Shown piece by piece: positions 3,152 through 63,553 of a stretch of DNA of 64,000 bases; position 1 is the first letter of the stretch; each line of letters opens with the position of its first letter. Location: NCBI RefSeq assembly GCF_020510705.1, contig NZ_CP075184.1, positions 2,294,001 through 2,358,000 of the forward strand, read 5' to 3'. This DNA comes from Acidovorax radicis (GTDB lineage: Bacteria; Pseudomonadota; Gammaproteobacteria; Burkholderiales; Burkholderiaceae_C). A program made the position numbers and the translations under genes. The notes beneath the pieces are model-generated. The model was not told the DNA's origin. It was given only the letters and a program-made list of their open reading frames with translations, and did not search any database.

Positions 3152-4456
3152 TCAGCGGGCAGACATCTGCTGCGGCAACCAGGTCACGATGCCGGGGAAG
3201 ACGTAGATCAGCGCCACGGCGCCGCACATGAGCAAGAACATGGGCATCGCCACCTTGGCGATCCAGGGCAGCTGGCGGCCCGTCATGCCCTGCAGCACGA
3301 ACAGGTTAAAACCCACGGGCGGTGTGATCTGCGCCATCTCGACCACCAGCACGATGAAGATGCCGAACCAGATGGGGTCGATGCCAGCGGCTTGCACTGT
3401 GGGCATGAGCACGCCCATGGTCAGCACCACCATCGAGATGCCGTCGAGGAAGCAGCCCAGGATGATGTAGAAAACCGCCAGCGCCACGATGAGCTGGGCC
3501 TGGTTCAGGCCCAGCGATGCAATCCACTCCGCCAGATGGCGCGGCAGGCCGATATAGCCCATGGCCAGCGTGAGGAACGCAGCGCCTGCCAGGATCAGCG
3601 CGATCATGCAGTACAGGCGCGTGGCGCCCATCAGCGAGTCCTTGAAGGTGCCCCAGGTCATCGAGCCCTGCACGGCCGACAGCACCAACGAGCCCACCAC
3701 GCCCACAGCCGCTGCTTCGGTGGCGGTGGCAAAGCCGGTGTAGATGGAGCCCAGCACGGCCGCGATCAGCAGCACCACGGGGATCAGGCTGCGCGATTCG
3801 GACAGCTTTTGCATGAAGGTCATGCGCACGTCGGCGGCAGGCACCTGCTCGGGGTGGCGCAGCGCCCAGACCATGATGTAGCCCGAGAACAAGGCCGCCA
3901 GCAAGATGCCCGGCAGCACGCCCGCGATGAACAGCTGCGAGATCGACACCTCGGCCGACACGCCGTAGACGATCATGATGATCGACGGCGGGATCAGCAG
4001 GCCCAGCGTGCTGGCCCCAGCCAGCGTGCCCACCACCATGTGCTCGGGGTAGCCGCGGCGCGTCAGCTCGGGCAGCGTCATTTTGCCGATGGTGGCGCAG
4101 GTGGCGGCACTCGACCCCGACACGGCGGCAAAGATCGTGCAGCCCACCACGTTGGTGTGCAGCAGCCGGCCCGGCAACGCCTGCACCCAGGGGGCCAGGC
4201 CCTTGAACATGTCTTGCGACAGCCGGGTGCGAAACAGGATTTCGCCCATCCAGATGAACAGCGGCAGGGCGGTCAGCGTCCAGCTGGAGGCGCTGCCCCA
4301 GATGGTCACCGCCATCGCATCGCCCGCCGGGCGCGCGGAAAACAGCTGCATGGCGATCCAGGCGACGCCGGAGAGGGTGAGCCCGATCCATACGCCGCTG
4401 CCCAGAATCAGGAACAGCGACAGCATGAGCAGGCCGGTTATGGTGAGATCACTCAT
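3152..4456 (-). CDS. dctM: TRAP transporter large permease, DctM subunit
   Basis: This 434-residue protein has about 12 hydrophobic helices and the DctM-type glycine/proline-rich pattern (VVGCTIFAAVSGSSAATCAT, then LLIPPSIIMIVYG and ITPPVGFNLFVLQG). It is the translocation subunit of a tripartite ATP-independent periplasmic transporter, driven by a sodium gradient. It is the third gene of a dctP-dctQ-dctM operon, 20 bp after dctQ. The substrate is set by the binding protein; TRAP systems usually carry organic acids. Confidence 0.93.
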   Translation of the reverse strand: MSDLTITGLLMLSLFLILGSGVWIGLTLSGVAWIAMQLFSARPAGDAMAVTIWGSASSWTLTALPLFIWMGEILFRTRLSQDMFKGLAPWVQALPGRLLHTNVVGCTIFAAVSGSSAATCATIGKMTLPELTRRGYPEHMVVGTLAGASTLGLLIPPSIIMIVYGVSAEVSISQLFIAGVLPGILLAALFSGYIMVWALRHPEQVPAADVRMTFMQKLSESRSLIPVVLLIAAVLGSIYTGFATATEAAAVGVVGSLVLSAVQGSMTWGTFKDSLMGATRLYCMIALILAGAAFLTLAMGYIGLPRHLAEWIASLGLNQAQLIVALAVFYIILGCFLDGISMVVLTMGVLMPTVQAAGIDPIWFGIFIVLVVEMAQITPPVGFNLFVLQGMTGRQLPWIAKVAMPMFLLMCGAVALIYVFPGIVTWLPQQMSAR

Positions 4457-6792: not shown

Positions 6793-8571
6793 TCAGCGTC
6801 GGCGGGCTAGCTTTTGCCAGGCCGCAGTGGCCGCCAGCACGGTGTGCATTTGCACCGTGTGCGCTTGGCGGAAGTCGTCGCCTTCAACGGTTTCGTCGGG
6901 GTACTCTGTGATCAGGGTGACCGGCGCGGAGTCGGGGTTGGCCGTTTCGGTCGCGGTGTAGGCCGTGCCGTGCAGCACGTCAAATTGAAGCTTGCCCGCG
7001 TGGCGCTCGTACAGCGCCATTTGCCGTGCGTTGAAGGCGGTAAGGCCCGGCACTTGGTCCAGCGCGGCGCACATCGCATGCAGCAATGCCATGGCTTCGC
7101 TTTGCCAGCCTGGGTGGTATCGCAGGATCAGAAAAAAGCCCTTGGGTATGGTCCATAGCTCAAAACCGCGCGGCATATAACCCGACAACGGGCGCGTCCA
7201 TTCGTGGGCCGGGTAGCCGTGCAGGTTGAGGTGCAGTTGCGCACCCGAGATGGAGAGGGCTTGCCGGCGGGCTGCGCGCTCATACAGAGGTGCCCCCTTG
7301 CGGTACTCGATGTCGTCGCCCAGGGCTGAATAGCGCGCGGCATGGTGCATGTGTTCCGCATTGTGGCTGCGCAGCTCGCGGTGCAGGGCGTAGCCGTCGG
7401 GGTTTTCCAGGGCCATCAGCGCAAAGTGGGCGCCAGCGTGGCTGTCCAGTGTTCGTGCTGCGCGCAAGGCGCCGACGATGCCAGAGGTTTCGTTGGCGTG
7501 CTGACCCCCACTGATGAATACCGGCGCGTCGGTGCCGTGGCGGTACAGGGCTTGCACCGCGCGGCCCTGGCGGCTGGCAGCGCCGAAGCGGTCTCCGGCT
7601 ATCCGCTGCATTTCGGAGGCGATGCGCTCGGGCGATGGCGCTGTGCCCAACGCGTCCAGTGGCTCATCCGTTGCCGGCAGCGCCGCTGCGCACAGGTCTT
7701 GGGCGGTCGTGTCAAAGGCTCGTTGTGCGATGCGCAGCCGTGGCGCCTGCAAGCTGGCACGCAGGTCGGGCACGATTTGTCCGGGTTGCAGACTGCGGTC
7801 GCCCGCAGGGCGGCCCGAGCGCCGCTGGAAAACCTCCAGCAGCGAAAAATAGATGTCCTCGTGCAGACCCTCAAGGCTGCTGATGGTCTCGTGACCGACG
7901 GGGAGCCGCTGCTCGATACCAGGCATGTCGATGCGGATATCGAGGCGCTCAAAGTAGGGCTCCTCGGCGCGCCACGGGTGGTTGGCCACGGTGTCCATTA
8001 CCGTGGCAAACAGCTGTTCGTAGTCGGTGACCCGGGCCATATCCAGCGCGGGCTGTGCGGCGGACTCAGGCGTTGCCCGCACCCACCCCGTGGGTGACAG
8101 CAGTTTGATGCCTTGCAAATCCGTGTGCATGCGGTTGGGCGCCCAGACGCGAGCCAGGAGCCGTGTGCCATCGCGATAGGTGCCTTCGATGCGGTAGTGC
8201 AGATCCTCCGTGCCTGGCACGAAGCTGAGTTGGCAATGCGTCAGCAGTGCCGCCAAGGGATAGGCTTCTTGTAAAAACCGCTGGGGCGACGCTTGCGGGT
8301 GCACCGGATAGTGGATGGTTACTTCAGCCAGCAGGCTGGCGTCGATGTCTTCGATGAAATAAAACACCAACGGCTTGTAGGCGCTGTGCAGGTGCGCTTG
8401 CACGCCCGCTGCGGCCAGTTGGCGTTCGGCCGCGCGGCGGGCCGCCACGCCTTCAAACAGCCAGGCCTGCACGCTGGCGCCACGCCAGGCGGGTTGGGTG
8501 AACTCTTGCACCCACACGTCCAGGGTGCGGGGGAAACGCTGGTCGAGAAGGACGGTGGTGGTGTTGCTCAT
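6793..8571 (-). CDS. M14-family zinc metallopeptidase
   Basis: The protein has 592 residues from the ATG at 8571, which overlaps the permease stop by one base (TGATG); a GTG lies one codon upstream. The C-terminal half carries the M14 zinc site: H358xxE361 in GGQHANETSG and H451 in LHLNLHGYPAHEW. The N-terminal half of about 330 residues has no recognised domain. It is probably a cytosolic peptidase or desuccinylase-like hydrolase acting on what the upstream ABC transporter imports. It is convergent with the MarR-type gene. Confidence 0.8.
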   Translation of the reverse strand: MSNTTTVLLDQRFPRTLDVWVQEFTQPAWRGASVQAWLFEGVAARRAAERQLAAAGVQAHLHSAYKPLVFYFIEDIDASLLAEVTIHYPVHPQASPQRFLQEAYPLAALLTHCQLSFVPGTEDLHYRIEGTYRDGTRLLARVWAPNRMHTDLQGIKLLSPTGWVRATPESAAQPALDMARVTDYEQLFATVMDTVANHPWRAEEPYFERLDIRIDMPGIEQRLPVGHETISSLEGLHEDIYFSLLEVFQRRSGRPAGDRSLQPGQIVPDLRASLQAPRLRIAQRAFDTTAQDLCAAALPATDEPLDALGTAPSPERIASEMQRIAGDRFGAASRQGRAVQALYRHGTDAPVFISGGQHANETSGIVGALRAARTLDSHAGAHFALMALENPDGYALHRELRSHNAEHMHHAARYSALGDDIEYRKGAPLYERAARRQALSISGAQLHLNLHGYPAHEWTRPLSGYMPRGFELWTIPKGFFLILRYHPGWQSEAMALLHAMCAALDQVPGLTAFNARQMALYERHAGKLQFDVLHGTAYTATETANPDSAPVTLITEYPDETVEGDDFRQAHTVQMHTVLAATAAWQKLARRR

Positions 8572-12090: not shown

Positions 12091-13950
<1,860 letters not shown>

Positions 13951-39977: not shown

Positions 39978-40364
39978 GGGGCTGTCCTGGTTTCGACGTG
40001 GGTTCGGAGTCGGTGTGGTGCATGTCGAGCTTGAGTCACGCTCGTAAATCTCGATTTAAAAAACTAACTGCAAACGACGAACGTTTCGCACTCGCTGCTT
40101 AATTGCCAGTGAGCCTTGCAACAGTTGGCCGATGGGCTGGGCAAGGGGGTTCTGAGTAATCAGTTCCTCCCGGCTGCAAGGATAATTACATGGGCTGGCC
40201 CTGATCCGGGTACCTTGGCTTGGGGTAAGAAAAAAGGGTGCTGGCTGGTGGTGTAGCGTGCGACTGCGCGACAACATTGGCGAGATTTAAATCAGACCGC
40301 TAAGCATGTAGATCTGCCCGATAAAGGCTTGCGGACGCGGGTTCAATTCCCGCCAGCTCCACCA
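39978..40364 (+). ncRNA. ssrA: Transfer-messenger RNA
   Basis: The 387-nt gene starts ggggctgtcctggtttcgac and ends in the tRNA-like T-arm and agctccACCA, which pairs with the 5' end. The tag frame begins at the resume codon GCA at about 40070 and encodes ANDERFALAA before TAA. tmRNA with SmpB rescues stalled ribosomes. The 3' end is the integration site of the prophage that follows; the CCA end is intact at this junction. Confidence 0.97.
40331..40357. other. attL core
   Basis: These 27 bases in the tmRNA T-arm region recur exactly at 63527-63553. The left copy is followed by tccacca, which completes the tmRNA. Confidence 0.9.
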
Positions 40365-57567: not shown

Positions 57568-57594
57568 TACCGCTGCTCAGGTTTGAGCAGTAGC

Positions 57595-57684
57595 TGCGCA
57601 TTCCGGTGATGATGACCGGTCAGTCCAGCAGCATGAACACCCTTAGCAGGTATCCTCGGTCACCGGCTGCAATCGGCCAGAAGC
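57595..57684. repeat. Inverted repeat of the cassette island, left copy
   Basis: 84 bp (57595-57678) match the reverse complement of 63091-63174 with two mismatches; six further bases match the sequence on the far side of the IS at 61405-61410. The outer end is TGCGCATTCCGGTGATGATG. The outermost bases TG...CA and the CCGGTGAT-type motif recall IS21-family ends, from memory. An extra hairpin (ctgctcaggtttgagcag) sits just outside. Confidence 0.85.
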
Positions 57685-57711
57685 AGCAGCTCACCGCAAA
57701 TGGAAGCGGAC

Positions 57712-57778
57712 GTTCAACGTTCGAATTGAGCGGCCTGCGCGGCTTTTCGCGCAGGTCCGCTCGAAAGAAGGGTTGGGC
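57712..57778 (-). other. attC site of cassette C
   Basis: Core sites GCCCAAC (R'') and GTTGAAC (R') bound a 67-bp imperfect palindrome with the arms gcggacctgcgcg / cgcgcaggccgc, in which one A is extrahelical. R'' is complementary to the start of cassette C (GTTGGGC, from 58352). The core seen to its left begins a cassette now missing, cut by the island end. Confidence 0.8.
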
Positions 57779-57799
57779 GCCATTGCCACATGGCGGCAC

Positions 57800-58336
57800 T
57801 TAGGAACTGGCGCTGCATTTTTTGCATTTCACTTCCGGGAATAACCCGTTCGGGTTCGGAATGACACCAAATAGCGCCTCGGCGTTCTCCTGAAAGAAGT
57901 GGTGACAGTAGGCAAATACGCCCTCTATGTTTAACCCAGCCACGCCTTTGTTCTTTGGATCATCAAGGTGGTGCACCAGCTCATTGGCATGTTCTCTGAG
58001 CACCTTCAGCGTGGGAAACAGGCGCTCTCTGATGATGTTTACGCCAACAGATGCTTCCTTGCACCCACGGCAATCAGTCGATAATTTCGCGGCCAAGTCT
58101 TCTTGGATTAGCTTCATAACAACTGTGTCCGCCGAGCGGGTTGCGAGCGCCACCACGTAAGCTTTAGACAACTCCTCCATCCAGTCACGACCTTTGCCAA
58201 AGCTGCTGTATGCGCGCAAAGCAGTTGTTCGCTGGATGATGGCTAAGGCTACTTGAACGTTCGGCCCTTCGCCCGCTCTGATGCCCACTGCATCGATTGG
58301 TTTAGGAACAAACTTCAGAAAGTCGTTCGTGCTCAC
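57800..58336 (-). CDS. Gene cassette C protein, unknown, with two CxxC pairs
   Basis: The 178-residue protein starts at GTG (58336); a TTG 15 bp upstream falls in the attC core. It is helical, with two CxxC pairs (CRGC near residue 95 and CKKC near the C terminus) that could bind a metal. It contains LREHANELVHHLDDPKNKGV. Its GC content is lower than that of the phage genes. The cassette spans 57718-58351 and ends in its own attC. I do not recognise a family. Confidence 0.6.
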   Translation of the reverse strand: MSTNDFLKFVPKPIDAVGIRAGEGPNVQVALAIIQRTTALRAYSSFGKGRDWMEELSKAYVVALATRSADTVVMKLIQEDLAAKLSTDCRGCKEASVGVNIIRERLFPTLKVLREHANELVHHLDDPKNKGVAGLNIEGVFAYCHHFFQENAEALFGVIPNPNGLFPEVKCKKCSASS

Positions 58337-58345
58337 GCCTATGAC

Positions 58346-58433
58346 GCCCAACGTGAAAATGACCGGACCACCACCCTTTGCGGCGAAGCCGCCTCCTGCA
58401 GGTCTGGGTCCGTGTCGATTGTCATGTTAGAGC
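58346..58433 (-). other. attC site of cassette B
   Basis: R'' GCTCTAAC (58426-58433) and R' GTTGGGC (58346-58352) enclose an 88-bp palindromic region (atgac...cggacc / ggtccg-gtcat, with a ggcggcttcgccgc hairpin inside). R'' is complementary to the start of cassette B. The cassette B stop codon TAA lies in R''. Confidence 0.78.
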
Positions 58434-58912
58434 TCCGGTGGTGTGGTGCGCTTCAAACGCCACTTAAATTTTTGAAGAGTTGAGTAGGTCTTTGAGGAAA
58501 CCTCGTCCACCGAACGACCTGCCATGATATTCATAGTGTCCTGATAAACCCGAAGACGCATTGCGTCCTGGAAACTTTCCTCCGAGAACGACCTGAAGGG
58601 AACGTAGCACTGGACCATCTCGGCCTTGACTTGAGCGAAATACTCTGCGAAAGGAAGTTGGTTCCAACTTCTCGCCTGGCGATTCCCAAAGAAGTGCCAT
58701 AGACCATCGCGGATGTTCGTAGGGAGCGCCTCAGTTTCAAACGGACCGTGCCGAATGTAGATAGGCTTCGTCGTGGCGTGCTCACCATCCGAATGTCTGC
58801 GACAGATGCGGTTGACGGTGCGTGAAAACTCGGCGCTCAAGGTTCCCTGAGGGTATGCATACGCATACTCGATGCAGATGTCGACGTACGGCGATGTGGA
58901 TGTGAAGTTCAC
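58427..58912 (-). CDS. Gene cassette B protein, unknown
   Basis: The 161-residue protein starts at the ATG at 58912 (MNFTSTSPYVDICIEYAYAY) and ends with the TAA in the attC core. It is a mixed alpha/beta soluble protein with no signal peptide; GLWHFFGNRQARSWNQLPFA and TYSTLQKFKWRL are notable. Cassette B spans 58352-58940. No known domain is recognised. AT-richer codon use than in the host genes fits a cassette origin. Confidence 0.6.
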   Translation of the reverse strand: MNFTSTSPYVDICIEYAYAYPQGTLSAEFSRTVNRICRRHSDGEHATTKPIYIRHGPFETEALPTNIRDGLWHFFGNRQARSWNQLPFAEYFAQVKAEMVQCYVPFRSFSEESFQDAMRLRVYQDTMNIMAGRSVDEVSSKTYSTLQKFKWRLKRTTPPEL

Positions 58913-58933
58913 GGCGTCCGATCGGGCCTGAGA

Positions 58934-59000
58934 GCTCTAACGTGGAGTTGAGGCGCCTGCGCGGCTTTTCGCGCAGGTCGCCTCGAACGCCGGGTTATGC
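58934..59000 (-). other. attC site of cassette A
   Basis: R'' GCATAAC (58994-59000) and R' GTTAGAGC (58934-58941) bound a 67-bp palindrome with gaggcg-A-cctgcgcg / cgcgcaggcgcctc arms and the same loop core as the attC at 57712. R'' pairs with the start of cassette A (GTTATGC at 59529). The two sites are clearly related. Confidence 0.8.
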
Positions 59001-59001
59001 C

Positions 59002-59508
59002 TCATAGCGGCTGTACCGCGATAGTGTTCCCGACGCGCGACAAAGAGAATTTCTTCCCTGACCAGAAATAGTCTCGATATGCCATACCGAAACCATTGGA
59101 GATGATGTCGTCGGTCGACAGGAAGCCCAGATCTTTGTAGAAGCGATCAAGCTGAGGGATCTTCTGTTGCTCCACGGCGACTTGAATGAATCCTTTGTCT
59201 TGGACCATTTGCTTCGCAGTATTGACGAGATGCTTTCCGAGGCCCGCGCCTCTGAACGCAGGGAAGACATAGAGGCACGAAAGAACGAACTGAAACTGTT
59301 TATGCTGAAAGCCCATGAAATATCGCTGTTGCTTTGCGAAATCCGGATTGAGAACGTGAGCGTTCTTTGATGACCGAGGATCTGTTAGCAGATTGCCGCC
59401 CATATCCGAGATGGCGTCGCCGTACCCCTGGAGCAACGGGGCCAGAAGATGCGGTTCATCGGATAGCCATTCAGAAAACTCTTCCTGCTGGACGAATAGA
59501 TCAGGCAT
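59002..59508 (-). CDS. Gene cassette A protein: GNAT-family N-acetyltransferase
   Basis: The 168-residue protein starts at the ATG at 59508 after AAGGAG. The acetyl-CoA loop is FRGAGLGKHLVNTAKQM at about residues 95-111, preceded by the beta-strand LSCLYVFPAF; the later LDRFYKDLGF is the usual GNAT C-terminal motif. The substrate is unknown; resistance or small-molecule acetylation are typical cassette roles. The cassette spans 58941-59528. Confidence 0.78.
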   Translation of the reverse strand: MPDLFVQQEEFSEWLSDEPHLLAPLLQGYGDAISDMGGNLLTDPRSSKNAHVLNPDFAKQQRYFMGFQHKQFQFVLSCLYVFPAFRGAGLGKHLVNTAKQMVQDKGFIQVAVEQQKIPQLDRFYKDLGFLSTDDIISNGFGMAYRDYFWSGKKFSLSRVGNTIAVQPL

Positions 59509-59836
59509 TGATACTCCTTGAGGCATAACGTAATTTAGACCGCAAAACCTGCGGGATAAACTGGACCGTGCGGGATATTCTGGGCACTGATTTCTCCTGG
59601 AGGCCGCTTGCAGCATAGCTTTTCAAGCGATGAGCTGTTCAAACGTACAGGTATAAAAATTCCATGAAACCCGGTACGCTTTAAGTCAGCAAACTATAGC
59701 TTGCCGTAGGCAAACACAGGGATTTCCAGCAACCGCGACAGCAAGTCAATGGCGGCTTCCAGGCGGCACTACTGAGCGGCGGCTTTGGGCCCAAAGCGGA
59801 AGTCAAGAGCGTAGCCGAGACAAAAAAGTTTGCCCC
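59509..59836. other. Spacer upstream of cassette A, remnant DNA
   Basis: The 328-bp gap starts with the cassette A boundary (GCATAAC at 59523-59529). The next 35 bp contain a weak palindrome (ccgcaaaacctgcggg) but no clear second core, so it may be an attI or a truncated attC. On the minus strand 59694-59767 a short frame ends AIDLLSRLLEIPVFAYGKL and looks like the C terminus of a lost gene. A piece gggcccaaagc at 59788 recurs at 60152. Confidence 0.45.
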
Positions 59837-60094
59837 TTAGTTGCTCGTTGCCTTGATGATGTTCAGAACGATCAGCTGGGGCAGGAGTGCAGTCATTCCA
59901 ATAGCAATCCACCACCAGCCCTTCCTACGTAGGCTCTGCACTTCGGCATCACCCTCTTTGCCAAGCTGAATGATTTGATATGCATTCAGGTGTCCGAGCC
60001 GCTTCATCAGCTTCAGCTTTTGGGGAAGGAGCCAGACTGCTCCGACAACTATCCAAAGAACCACCGAAGCGAAAAAAATGGATACGAGCGTCAT
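59837..60094 (-). CDS. Small two-helix membrane protein
   Basis: The 85-residue protein (MTLVSIFFASVVLWIVVGAV) has two membrane helices separated by a polar loop (GHLNAYQIIQLGKEGDAEVQ) and an AT-rich coding sequence. It may be a former cassette gene, but no attC adjoins it. Function is unknown. Confidence 0.5.
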   Translation of the reverse strand: MTLVSIFFASVVLWIVVGAVWLLPQKLKLMKRLGHLNAYQIIQLGKEGDAEVQSLRRKGWWWIAIGMTALLPQLIVLNIIKATSN

Positions 60095-60243
60095 AAAGAA
60101 TGCGAAGGTCTGCTATTAGCCGGATTCTGCCCCACGGCGAGGGGCACTACCGGGCCCAAAGCAGCCGTACACCTTTCCCGTAAGCAGACGTCAGTAAATC
60201 ACCGAGCTACAAGCTAATAGCCCGGATTGATACACAGGCCATC

Positions 60244-61314
60244 TCAATGCGGATGTGCATGCCCATGGCGGTGATGAATGTCCGGGTAATGCGGGTGCTT
60301 GTGCGTCAACACCTCATGCCGGTGGGCATGCGTGTGCGGTTCCGTGGCGTTCCAGGCAAAGGCATGCGCGTGCTGGTGGTGCTCGTCATGCGAATGCCTG
60401 TGGCTGTGCTCCAGCGGCTCATGGCTGTGTTCGTGTTCATGCCGCTCGCGGACATGCAACCAGATGCCAACGGCCATCAGCGCGGCGGCCGTCCAGAAGA
60501 GTGGGCCCGGCACGTCGGGCCATAACGCCAAAGAAATGGCCACGCCAAACAGCGGTGCTACCGAAAAATAAGCCCCCGTCCGGGCCGTGCCCAGCGTCCG
60601 CAGAGCCACCACGAACAAGGTCAAACTCAATCCATAGCCGATAAATCCCACGACGAGGCTCCCACCCAGCGTGGTCATCGATGGCAGCGCGGCGCCATTG
60701 AGAAGCGCCAGGGCGGTATTGCTGACCCCGGCAAGTAATCCCTTCAACCCGGCGACCAGCATGGCATCGTTCGTCGAAACCTTGCGGGTCAGGTTGTTGT
60801 CCACTGCCCAGCACAGGCATGCCCCAACAATGAGCAACGCACCTGACGAAAATCTCACAGCGCCTGGCTGCCAGGACAGCAGGAGACCGGCAAGAACGAT
60901 GACCACCATACCCAATACGATGTGGCGGTCCGCATTCTCCTTGAACACCCACCAGGCGATGAGCGCAGTCAACACGCCTTCGACATTCAGCAGCAGCGAT
61001 GCCGAGGCGCCGCTGGTCTGGGTCAGTCCGAGCATCAGCAGCGCTGGGCCGAGTACGCCGCCAAACACGATGGCGCTCAGCAGCCAGGGCAGTTCGGCCC
61101 GTGGAATACGCAGAGCATCGGGAGTGTGCTCACCTTCTTTTTTCCTCAGCTGGCGCAGCGCCAGCAACAGACACAGGCCAAGTCCGCTGCCCAGGTAGAG
61201 CAGCCCGGCCAATAGCAAAGGTGTCACATTGCCGAGCAGCAGCTTGGCAAATGGCGTGCTCGCGCCAAACAACAGGGCGGCGGCGAGTGCGGGTGCAGCG
61301 GAACGTATAGACAT
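60244..61314 (-). CDS. EamA/DMT-family transporter with histidine-rich tail
   Basis: The 356-residue protein from the ATG at 61314 has ten membrane helices in two EamA repeats (ALLFGASTPFAKLLLGNVTP; GWAVDNN-type segment LCWAVDNNLTRKVSTNDAML). The C-terminal 70 residues are rich in histidine (HEHEHSHEP, HRHSHDEHH, HGHAHPH), about 28 in total, suggesting binding of a divalent metal such as nickel, cobalt or zinc. EamA proteins export metabolites, and this tail points to metal handling. Confidence 0.82.
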   Translation of the reverse strand: MSIRSAAPALAAALLFGASTPFAKLLLGNVTPLLLAGLLYLGSGLGLCLLLALRQLRKKEGEHTPDALRIPRAELPWLLSAIVFGGVLGPALLMLGLTQTSGASASLLLNVEGVLTALIAWWVFKENADRHIVLGMVVIVLAGLLLSWQPGAVRFSSGALLIVGACLCWAVDNNLTRKVSTNDAMLVAGLKGLLAGVSNTALALLNGAALPSMTTLGGSLVVGFIGYGLSLTLFVVALRTLGTARTGAYFSVAPLFGVAISLALWPDVPGPLFWTAAALMAVGIWLHVRERHEHEHSHEPLEHSHRHSHDEHHQHAHAFAWNATEPHTHAHRHEVLTHKHPHYPDIHHRHGHAHPH

Positions 61315-61414
61315 GGAGAAAGTAAAACACACCTGCAAAGGCAATGATGCACGTTGAGCCGTTAGCTAAGGATGTTGCGTGCTGAAGTTTGACCGGCAAT
61401 GTCCGCTTCTGGCC

Positions 61415-63090
61415 GAGGCTGTGTGGAAACGCGCAGCGAGTGAACGGGCGAATCCCTTCCTGCCTAACTGGGCCGTATTTTCGGCCTCCGCGTTTTTGAG
61501 CGCACCCCTGGGGCTGATGAGTCGATCTGAAGCGCGGATGTGCTTGTAGAGGCCAAGAAAGGCCTCATGCCTTGACCATCCTCATCGCCTGCATCGTCCC
61601 CGCGATGCCCAGCACGCCGATCACCCGCTTGAGGTTGTAGGCCAGCACATGCAGGCTCATCTCGGTGCTGACATGCTTGAGGGTCTTCATCAGGAAGTGC
61701 GTCGAGCCCATCCAGTGCTTGAGAGTGCCGAAGACATGTTCCACGGTGGACCTGCGCAAGGTCATGGCGTCCGGCTTGCGGTCCAGCCGCTGCTGCACAC
61801 GCTCAAGAACTTCTTCGTGTTCCCAACGCCGGATGCGTCTGTTGCGGCTGGTCGTGCACTCAGCCTTGAGGGCGCATCCCGGGCATGCACTGCTCCAGTA
61901 GACACGCGCATTGAGACCGCTCTTCTCCAGCGTGCTGAACCGGTAGATGGCTCGCTTGCCCGCAGGGCACTGGTATTCATCATCCTCCGCGATGTAGATG
62001 AAGTCGGCCTTGTCGAAGCGCCCCTCGGCCTTCGCGTTGGAGGTCATAGGCTTGGGTACGAATGCCGTGATGCTGGCGTCTTCGCAGGCCTTGAGCTGCG
62101 GGCCACTGAAGTAGCCGCGGTCGGCGAAGGCCTGTAGGCCCTGAGTTCCCATCGTCTGGCCTGCGGCGCAGGCCATCTTGTGCAGTTGTGCACGGTCGTT
62201 GCCGACATTCGTGACCTCGTGCGCGACGATCAGATGGTGCTCGGCATCGACGGCCGTCTGCACGTTGTAGCCCACCAGACCCGATCCCTTGGCCTGGGTA
62301 GTCATCGAGCGTGCATCGGGATCGGTGAGTGATATCTGTCCGTCAGGTAGGTCCTTTAGCTGCTCTCTCAAGCTATCGAGCCGCCGCATCTGCTCGCGTA
62401 ACTTCTTGATCTTCTCCTGCAAGCGTTCTGTCTTAGCCTCGACTTCCGCGGGCTGCGTGCGGTCAGCGGTCTCCAGCGCGTCGAGGTAACGCTGGATGCT
62501 TTGTTCGATTTGCTCCTGGCGCCTGTCGATCTTGCCCGGGGTGAAGTTGCGGTCGCGGCTGTTGACCGCCTTGAACTTGCTGCCATCGATCGCCACTATG
62601 GCCTGCGAGAAGAGCTTGAACTGCCGGCACATGGCGATGAAGCGCTTGCAGACGTTGCGGATGCCCGGGCCGCTGTTGCGGCGGAAGTCGGCAATGGTCT
62701 TGAAGTCCGGCGCGAGACGGCCGGTCAGCCACATCAGCTCGACATTGCGCTGGGCTTCACGCTCCAAACGACGGCTCGATTGGATGCGGTTGAGATACCC
62801 GTAGATGTAGAGCTTGAGCAGTACGGCAGGGTGATACGCCGGCCGACCGGTGGCAGCAGGATTGACGCCATCGAAGCCGATCGACTGGAGATCGAGCTCC
62901 TCGACAAAGGCATCTACTACTCGTACCGGGTTGTCCTCGCCGATGTAGTCGTCCAGGCACTCCGGCAGCAGCGTGACCTGTCTTCGGTCCTCGCCTTCGA
63001 TGAATCTCTTCATGGGTCACCTCGATCGCAACGGGGTGGCATGATTTTATTTGCGATGGTCCGAATGGCGAAGTGTTTTCACACAGCCTC
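61415..63090 (-). mobile_element. IS1182-like insertion sequence
   Basis: The element is 1,676 bp with terminal inverted repeats (gaggctgtgtggaaacgc at the left; gaggctgtgtgaaaacac read inward from the right), flanked by ggcc on both sides (61411-61414 and 63091-63094), the likely 4-bp target duplication. It carries one transposase gene. It lies inside the right copy of the 84-bp inverted repeat. Confidence 0.85.
61565..63013 (-). CDS. IS1182-family transposase
   Basis: The 482-residue DDE transposase starts at the ATG at 63013 (MKRFIEGEDRRQVTLLPECL). It has the catalytic aspartates in AIVAIDGSKFKAVNSRD and AFADRGYFSG and the glutamate in STVEHVFGTLKHWMGS. There is a coiled region in the middle (EKIKKLREQMRRLDSLREQL) and a cysteine cluster (CPAGKRAIY; CPGCALKAEC). 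The gene is intact, so the IS may be active. Confidence 0.95.
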   Translation of the reverse strand: MKRFIEGEDRRQVTLLPECLDDYIGEDNPVRVVDAFVEELDLQSIGFDGVNPAATGRPAYHPAVLLKLYIYGYLNRIQSSRRLEREAQRNVELMWLTGRLAPDFKTIADFRRNSGPGIRNVCKRFIAMCRQFKLFSQAIVAIDGSKFKAVNSRDRNFTPGKIDRRQEQIEQSIQRYLDALETADRTQPAEVEAKTERLQEKIKKLREQMRRLDSLREQLKDLPDGQISLTDPDARSMTTQAKGSGLVGYNVQTAVDAEHHLIVAHEVTNVGNDRAQLHKMACAAGQTMGTQGLQAFADRGYFSGPQLKACEDASITAFVPKPMTSNAKAEGRFDKADFIYIAEDDEYQCPAGKRAIYRFSTLEKSGLNARVYWSSACPGCALKAECTTSRNRRIRRWEHEEVLERVQQRLDRKPDAMTLRRSTVEHVFGTLKHWMGSTHFLMKTLKHVSTEMSLHVLAYNLKRVIGVLGIAGTMQAMRMVKA

Positions 63091-63174
63091 GGCCGATTGC
63101 GGCCGGTGGCCGAGGATACCTGCTAAGGGTGTTCATGCTGCTGGACTGACCGGTCATCATCACCGGAATGCGCA
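63091..63174. repeat. Inverted repeat of the cassette island, right copy
   Basis: Matches 57595-57678 in reverse complement with two mismatches. The IS interrupts it at the inner end; the last bases (cttct) continue at 61406-61410 on the other side. The outer end reads ccggaatgcgca. Confidence 0.85.
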
Positions 63175-63526: not shown

Positions 63527-63553
63527 GCGGACGCGGGTTCAATTCCCGCCAGC
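63527..63553. other. attR core
   Basis: The exact 27-bp copy of the tmRNA 3' segment at 40331-40357. It is followed by gcttgatgc, not by the tmRNA end tccacca, so the host's displaced 3' end is not preserved in full. Confidence 0.88.

Follow-up and report, generated by a model that had tools for sequence, protein, structure and literature searches.

The window analyzed here is a stretch of 64,000 nucleotides of the Acidovorax radicis genome (NCBI RefSeq assembly GCF_020510705.1, contig NZ_CP075184.1, positions 2,294,001 to 2,358,000), and this study concerns an island of 5.6 kb near its right end, at 57595-63174. Our analyses led us to favor, on balance, the explanation that the island is an integron platform without an integrase gene that lies, together with a transporter gene, between inverted copies of a repeat found at dispersed sites, here referred to as END; its cassettes would have been acquired through an integron integrase (IntI) acting in trans, and the END-bounded unit would have been carried into a prophage. 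The island has an attI-like site homologous to attI sites adjoining intI, it has no intI of its own, and the same architecture is present at many places in the genus Acidovorax. These three features go beyond an earlier sequence-only reading of this DNA, which had described a group of cassettes within an inverted repeat.

The attI-like site of the island matched, at 80% over 157 bp, the sequence directly upstream of the complete intI at locus L069 of another Acidovorax genome, and its counterpart at locus L068 at 66%. An attI profile seeded with the L069 and L068 sites plus five solo sites identified the island at an E-value of 3e-50, the window itself being one of the seeds. A tblastn search of the island with an Acidovorax IntI as query identified nothing at E ≤ 1e-3. 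Of the other parts of a complete integron, the island has an attI site, recognized by homology alone, and cassettes, with three attC-like sites of which two had strong folds and one a weak fold. Under our in-house attC rules it also has the composition of a cluster of attC sites lacking integron-integrases (CALIN), i.e., two or more attC sites and no neighboring integron integrase. The proteins of cassettes 2 and 3 had no match in Pfam, NCBIfam or PADLOC under the limits applied. A defense role for the cassette genes was considered and dropped, as none of the five proteins tested had a PADLOC match.

Searches of 47 Acidovorax genomes, in which the genome counts for attI and END are lower bounds, identified at least 105 matches to the attI-like sequence in at least 35 genomes. 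A weaker match was found in 11 of the 118 other family genomes searched outside the genus, and the plasmid and phage collections had no match to the leader. We read 40 further places (38 selected largely among the best-scoring attI matches, the other two because of other parts of the island) plus the END and intI loci, and these contained 59 attI sites, 51 of which had no intI within 1.5 kb upstream. Of these 51 sites, 39 had a conserved distal end (DIST), sought with a profile seeded by four END-bearing copies, in convergent orientation no more than 6 kb downstream. When all 59 attI sites were considered, DIST was convergent rather than in the same orientation in 42 vs 2 downstream cases, the corresponding upstream numbers being 6 and 14. 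attI and DIST were 364 to 4733 bp apart (median near 0.95 kb, about one cassette length), and the flanks past the TGGCCG of DIST mostly varied between places. Few sites emerged from a strict attC finder, and a loose one gave noisy results across whole loci; we therefore assessed attC at the DIST junction in comparison with shuffled sequences. Of the 31 sites having a DIST GTT, 20 had an attC-like hairpin ending exactly at it, compared to 3.8 in shuffles, and eight of the 39 DIST sites had no GTT at that position.

Some of the 14 upstream DIST cases were head-to-head platform pairs (L245, L267, L269 and L273), and in L267 the outer parts of the two leaders join around a GGGCCC palindrome. A second attI-like site was also found after the array of an integron with a broken intI (L084 13879-14027, genome G040).

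The outer leader had a mean pairwise identity of 0.578 over 43 solo leaders, the promoter-like part 0.763, the intervening part 0.664 and the attI core 0.825, compared to 0.29 just past the crossover. The conservation of the attI core and the fall in identity beyond it indicate that the site has been kept while the cassettes have changed; at the level of sequence, this comparison demonstrated cassette exchange at the crossover. Together, the dispersed attI-like sites, their DIST partner and the drop in identity past the crossover place the island in a genus-wide family of integrase-less platforms, each composed of attI, cassettes and an end. Capture of cassettes by such a solo attI platform, via an IntI supplied from elsewhere, would be the most likely origin of the cassettes in the island.

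IntI proteins above the family cut-off were found in 12 of the 47 genomes. Nine genomes had both attI-like sites and IntI, 26 had attI alone, three had intI alone and nine had neither. The attI profile identified a site beside intI, at E ≤ 1e-3, in eight places, namely six of the 15 intI loci (that of our own genome included), L044 and L276; at L080, another of the 15, the profile scored 0.025. The remaining intI loci had broken copies or an integrase of another clade, 54-57% identical to the L069 IntI. The A. radicis genome itself encodes an IntI of the matching clade (C1:3523244-3524188), which had no stops, scored 444.4 bits relative to a cut-off of 265 and was 75% identical to the L069 IntI, and its gene is followed by both attI and DIST. 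This integrase would be a candidate for the one through which cassettes entered the attI of the island. The genus also contains a second integron clade (L072-L076) with regular 60-bp attC arrays, whose intI loci were unmatched by the attI profile.

The frame of the island agreed with the sequence-only reading, which had noted an inverted repeat of 84 bp with two mismatches: the arms at 57595-57678 and 63091-63174 were 84 nt long, 98% complementary and separated by 5412 nt. Its inventory of three cassettes, a small membrane gene, a His-rich exporter and an insertion sequence (IS) between the arms was likewise supported, by the attC-like hairpins and by matches to EamA (PF00892) and IS1182 (NF033551). 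The IS1182 transposase scored 456.9 bits relative to a cut-off of 270, and the element has terminal repeats and a short duplication, GGCC, at 61411-61414 and 63091-63094, as is characteristic of the family. When this IS was bridged, the inverted repeat gained six bases, indicating that the arm was originally about 90 bp and that the frame predates the IS, which would have cut into the right END arm later. Two arms so similar are able to pair, and the earlier reading had suggested that recombination between them could flip the island; if so, the frame might be an invertible segment whose flipping alters expression. We consider this very improbable, as a single orientation was present in the data, no recombinase gene was recognized beside the arms and the IS lies within one of them.

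The island lies at the right end of a prophage, a placement that the earlier reading had also given. This prophage is integrated at ssrA, the gene for transfer-messenger RNA (tmRNA, 39978-40364), and is delimited by the tmRNA and by a 27-bp word common to 40331-40357 and 63527-63553. Searches with the last prophage genes matched seven of the 47 genomes. In the three relatives read (G034, G006 and G031) the prophage match stopped at 57568 and continued into sequence without END, including a terminator of their own, and the exact insertion target was not recovered. As these relatives continue without END, the island appears to be an addition to this phage; the outcome of this comparison, which the earlier reading had named as a possible refutation, fits an insertion into this copy. 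The END-bounded segment would be a non-autonomous unit, brought to the prophage's right end by a transposase acting in trans.

Copies of END were found at E ≤ 1e-6 in at least 12 of the 47 Acidovorax genomes, beyond chance. A consensus search of the wider family matched at least four of 399 genomes, a number that is not to be taken as a rate, and the outer END pattern with up to three mismatches was present in three of the 399, all of the genus Acidovorax. The phage collection had no END match. Among the loci read there were 23 END copies, the Acidovorax carolinensis plasmids being counted a single time. Seven of these run into DIST (the window left arm, L043, L044, L046, L048, L052 and L261), four of which are the DIST profile seeds, and in L044 the orientation of END and DIST does not fit the nearby attI. 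In three copies (the window right arm, L054 and L056) END was on the proximal side of attI. The earlier reading had named a common, unrelated intergenic repeat as a refuting outcome, and END is in fact dispersed, with integron contacts in only a part of its copies. Inverted END pairs were observed twice, in the island and as a 2.7 kb pair in G039, whose genes look LysR-like and cupin-like by eye.

At the site of L054 and L056, END begins within the descending arm of a terminator hairpin in G010 and G022, whereas 13 relatives continue without END into the next gene; the other boundary of this insert has been lost. By this comparison END has a sharp boundary at this one compared site. A different dispersed repeat, with a GTCTGTTTGCGATCTC edge, takes the place of the right flank of this insert (L054 about 6830-6950, L056 about 12890-13180, L050 and L243). 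A search with the flanks of the A. radicis genome's third END copy matched related genes and gave no junction. Past DIST in two genomes (L056 about 13200-13260 and L267 about 4192-4255) we also observed a second end-like sequence, which has similar units and is not END.

The contact between END and DIST raised another explanation, that END was the original outer continuation of the integron distal end and was copied with it, and that a local duplication and inversion produced the inverted pair. The inner END edge, GGCCAGGAGC, is identical to the outermost bases of DIST and is present in the right arm of the island too, and END meets DIST in the seven copies given above, including the four profile seeds. 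This explanation is nonetheless improbable, based on the variation between places of the flank past TGGCCG in END-free platforms, the sharp outer boundary of END at the compared site and the presence of END alone in many loci.

As to the origin of END, the sequence-only reading had proposed that the frame was IS21-like and perhaps a decayed composite transposon. Tandem terminal units of about 22 bp mark the IS21 family. The outer ends of END are indeed TG...CA, and its first 48 bases hold two consecutive 22-bp units in the END consensus, which gives END a weak resemblance to IS21 ends (the units were picked by eye, and their score was reached by nine of 5000 shuffled pairs). Sequence near an istB fragment resembled END at an E-value of 0.44. 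In 27 of 30 istB loci scanned for END, over about 1.5 kb on each side, so that an end could have been missed, the best E-value was 0.2. No istA or istB was seen inside the frame, and a Pfam scan of ten window proteins revealed no IS21 protein. The composite IS21 transposon was not upheld, given this and the lack of a visible target duplication, and an IS21 parent was set aside as unproven, with the weak resemblance and the istB loci providing no convincing match; END may still be derived from a terminus of IS21 type. We also decided against a Tn7-like parent, because the tnsA- and tnsB-like genes lie outside END. These neighbors were observed near the END copies on the Acidovorax carolinensis plasmids and the G039 pair, and tnsA, tnsB and tniB-like genes near but outside END were found at L004 1-3460, L005 1-1461 and L053 11985-14685.

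Several observations weigh against the favored explanation. With regard to END, the istB loci gave the poor match just described, no transposase was flanked by END on both sides in the loci read, no target duplication was seen by eye between the flanks of the frame at 57594 and 63175, and in the remaining END copies no integron part was recognized. With regard to the platforms, DIST was missing from 12 of the 51 solo attI sites, in some cases because the contig ended, and under the strict attC rule a site was found at 13 of 39 DIST junctions, vs 2.0 in shuffles. Comparison of the flanks of 37 platforms with the available loci revealed no empty platform site among the matches listed. Among the 35 genomes that have attI-like sites, 26 had no IntI above the cut-off. 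In six of the 12 genomes with IntI (G012, G030, G046, G004, G024 and G043) the integrase was of another clade or broken; these six were 44-57% identical apart from one short stretch. Lastly, the LexA box was present in six of seven intI-linked sites vs six of 43 solo sites, the window being among these six. As so few solo leaders have the box, we no longer consider a LexA-controlled cassette promoter to be a general feature.

The paucity of IntI and the loss of the LexA box from 37 of 43 solo leaders would both be expected if the platforms were inert relics, i.e., if an ancestral intI integron had been copied, the copies had lost intI and the island had later been enclosed by END. The likeness of leaders and distal ends would then be due to common descent or to homologous recombination between copies. 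Consistent with this, a decayed intI was found at the END locus L044, and G010 and G033 have one occupied platform site in common (G011 having the same right flank and a similar edge), from which it follows that some platforms are old. On the other hand, the attI core is better conserved than the outer leader, cassettes diverge directly past the crossover, and no IntI similarity was detected within 1.5 kb upstream of the 43 solo sites. We regard relics as a possible but not a probable explanation. We infer instead that IntI has acted in trans and that the END-bounded unit has transposed; the capture part of this mechanism draws on the genus-wide comparison, and the carriage part on the one sharp END boundary and the frame itself.

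The order of features on the minus strand is END, IS1182, EamA transporter, small membrane-like open reading frame (ORF), leader, three cassettes, distal end and END, and their coordinates are listed in Table 1.

Table 1. Positions of the island features and prophage att repeats in the window. Fold z-scores of attC were calculated on the plus strand relative to single-base shuffles.
Feature	Position	Strand	Remarks
END left arm	57595..57684	+	84 bp, about 90 bp once the IS in the other arm is bridged
DIST, conserved distal end	57673..57719	-	spans the last attC GTT to TGGCCG
attC of cassette 3, last in array	57712..57778	-	fold z -6.3
Cassette 3, 183-aa protein	57800..58351	-	no family
attC of cassette 2	58346..58432	-	fold z -2.2, weak
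Cassette 2, 161-aa protein	58427..58912	-	no family
attC of cassette 1	about 58935..59000	-	fold z -5.0
Cassette 1, GNAT acetyltransferase	59002..59508	-	PF13673, E 1.1e-7; listed ORF reaches 59616, start taken as 59508
Platform leader, conserved, about 280 bp	59519..59799	-	includes attI-like site
attI-like site	59521..59685	-	crossover GTT at 59529-59527
LexA-box-like CTGT-N8-ACAG	59635..59650	-	in leader
Small membrane-like ORF, 85 aa	59837..60094	-	no family
Connector-like sequence GGATTCTGCCCCACGGCGAGG...GGGCCC	60111..60175	.	by eye
EamA-family transporter gene	60244..61344	-	PF00892, E 3.5e-25; His-rich tail
IS1182-family IS	61415..63090	-	inner edge of right arm; transposase ORF 61565-63013
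END right arm	63091..63174	-	resumes at 61405-61410 past the IS
Left prophage att repeat	40331..40357	+	3' end of tmRNA gene
Right prophage att repeat	63527..63553	+	copy of tmRNA gene 3' end

No attC was recognized for the EamA transporter gene, and the transporter region (60152-61351) has a second copy, 81% identical, in the same genome (G000:C1:1214460-1215659). The stretch containing the small membrane-like ORF (59780-60173) was 98% identical to G033:C205:5054-5446, from another Acidovorax species, a far closer match than for the rest of the island. The connector (GAATTCTGCCCCACGGCGAGGGACGCTAGCGGGCCC-like) links the DIST of one platform with the leader of the next in L257, L265 and L271, and is present in the island too.

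If the favored explanation is extended to the genus, we can tentatively envisage a distributed integron in Acidovorax, in which an IntI of the right clade, in those genomes that have one, would serve many scattered attI platforms, each with one or a few cassettes after a conserved leader of its own, with cassettes being swapped and expressed at several places simultaneously and some platforms riding END-bounded units to prophages. If the integrase-less platforms are live, the expressed cassette pool of a genome would exceed its annotation, and the genus would provide a natural system for studying one IntI acting on many attI in one cell, as well as the arrival of cassettes in phages.

Descriptions of integrons present a single platform that has an integrase of its own. 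In the open-licence literature on integrase-less attI or on Acidovorax and Comamonadaceae integrons, no dispersed family of attI-cassette-end platforms was found among the matches listed, and an earlier description in subscription literature is possible. The accessible text of the relevant sources establishes that CALINs, single attC sites lacking integron-integrases (SALINs), an attI-headed prophage CALIN, integrons framed by miniature inverted-repeat transposable elements (MITEs) and attI sites in cassettes are already described. In integron mobilization units, too, two copies of a short repeat surround integron material, which may be mobilized in trans. In the MITE-framed integrons, integron material lies between two 439-bp MITEs and is possibly mobilized in trans (PMC3934969), similar to the island, which has two END copies with no duplicated target seen outside them. 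The island differs from these, as far as that source's accessible text goes, in that END is about 90 bp and there is neither an intI nor a known helper. The END frame bears a weak resemblance to the IS21 family in its TG...CA ends and two 22-bp units and departs from it in the features noted above.

In the attI-type gene cassettes of mobile integrons (PMC12901181), attI is also located away from the integrase gene; in the text available it replaces attC at the cassette end, whereas the attI of the island heads the array. A closer parallel is the CALIN with its own attI in the inactive Shewanella prophage M16-3 (PMC9892861), where attI likewise heads an integrase-less array. The accessible part of that report presents one case beside a complete integron, and describes no END frame or genus-wide family. 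By default IntegronFinder 2.0 requires two or more attC for a CALIN and, according to the portion consulted, seeks attI for class 1 integrons only (PMC9024848). Single scattered cassettes have been counted in Shewanella, where 115 SALINs were reported (PMC9229058). The island resembles CALINs and SALINs, as presented in the accessible parts of these papers, in having attC cassettes with no intI nearby (PMC9229058, PMC9024848), and is distinguished from them in that its cassettes are preceded by a conserved attI-like leader and followed by a conserved distal end, an arrangement repeated at many places in the genus.

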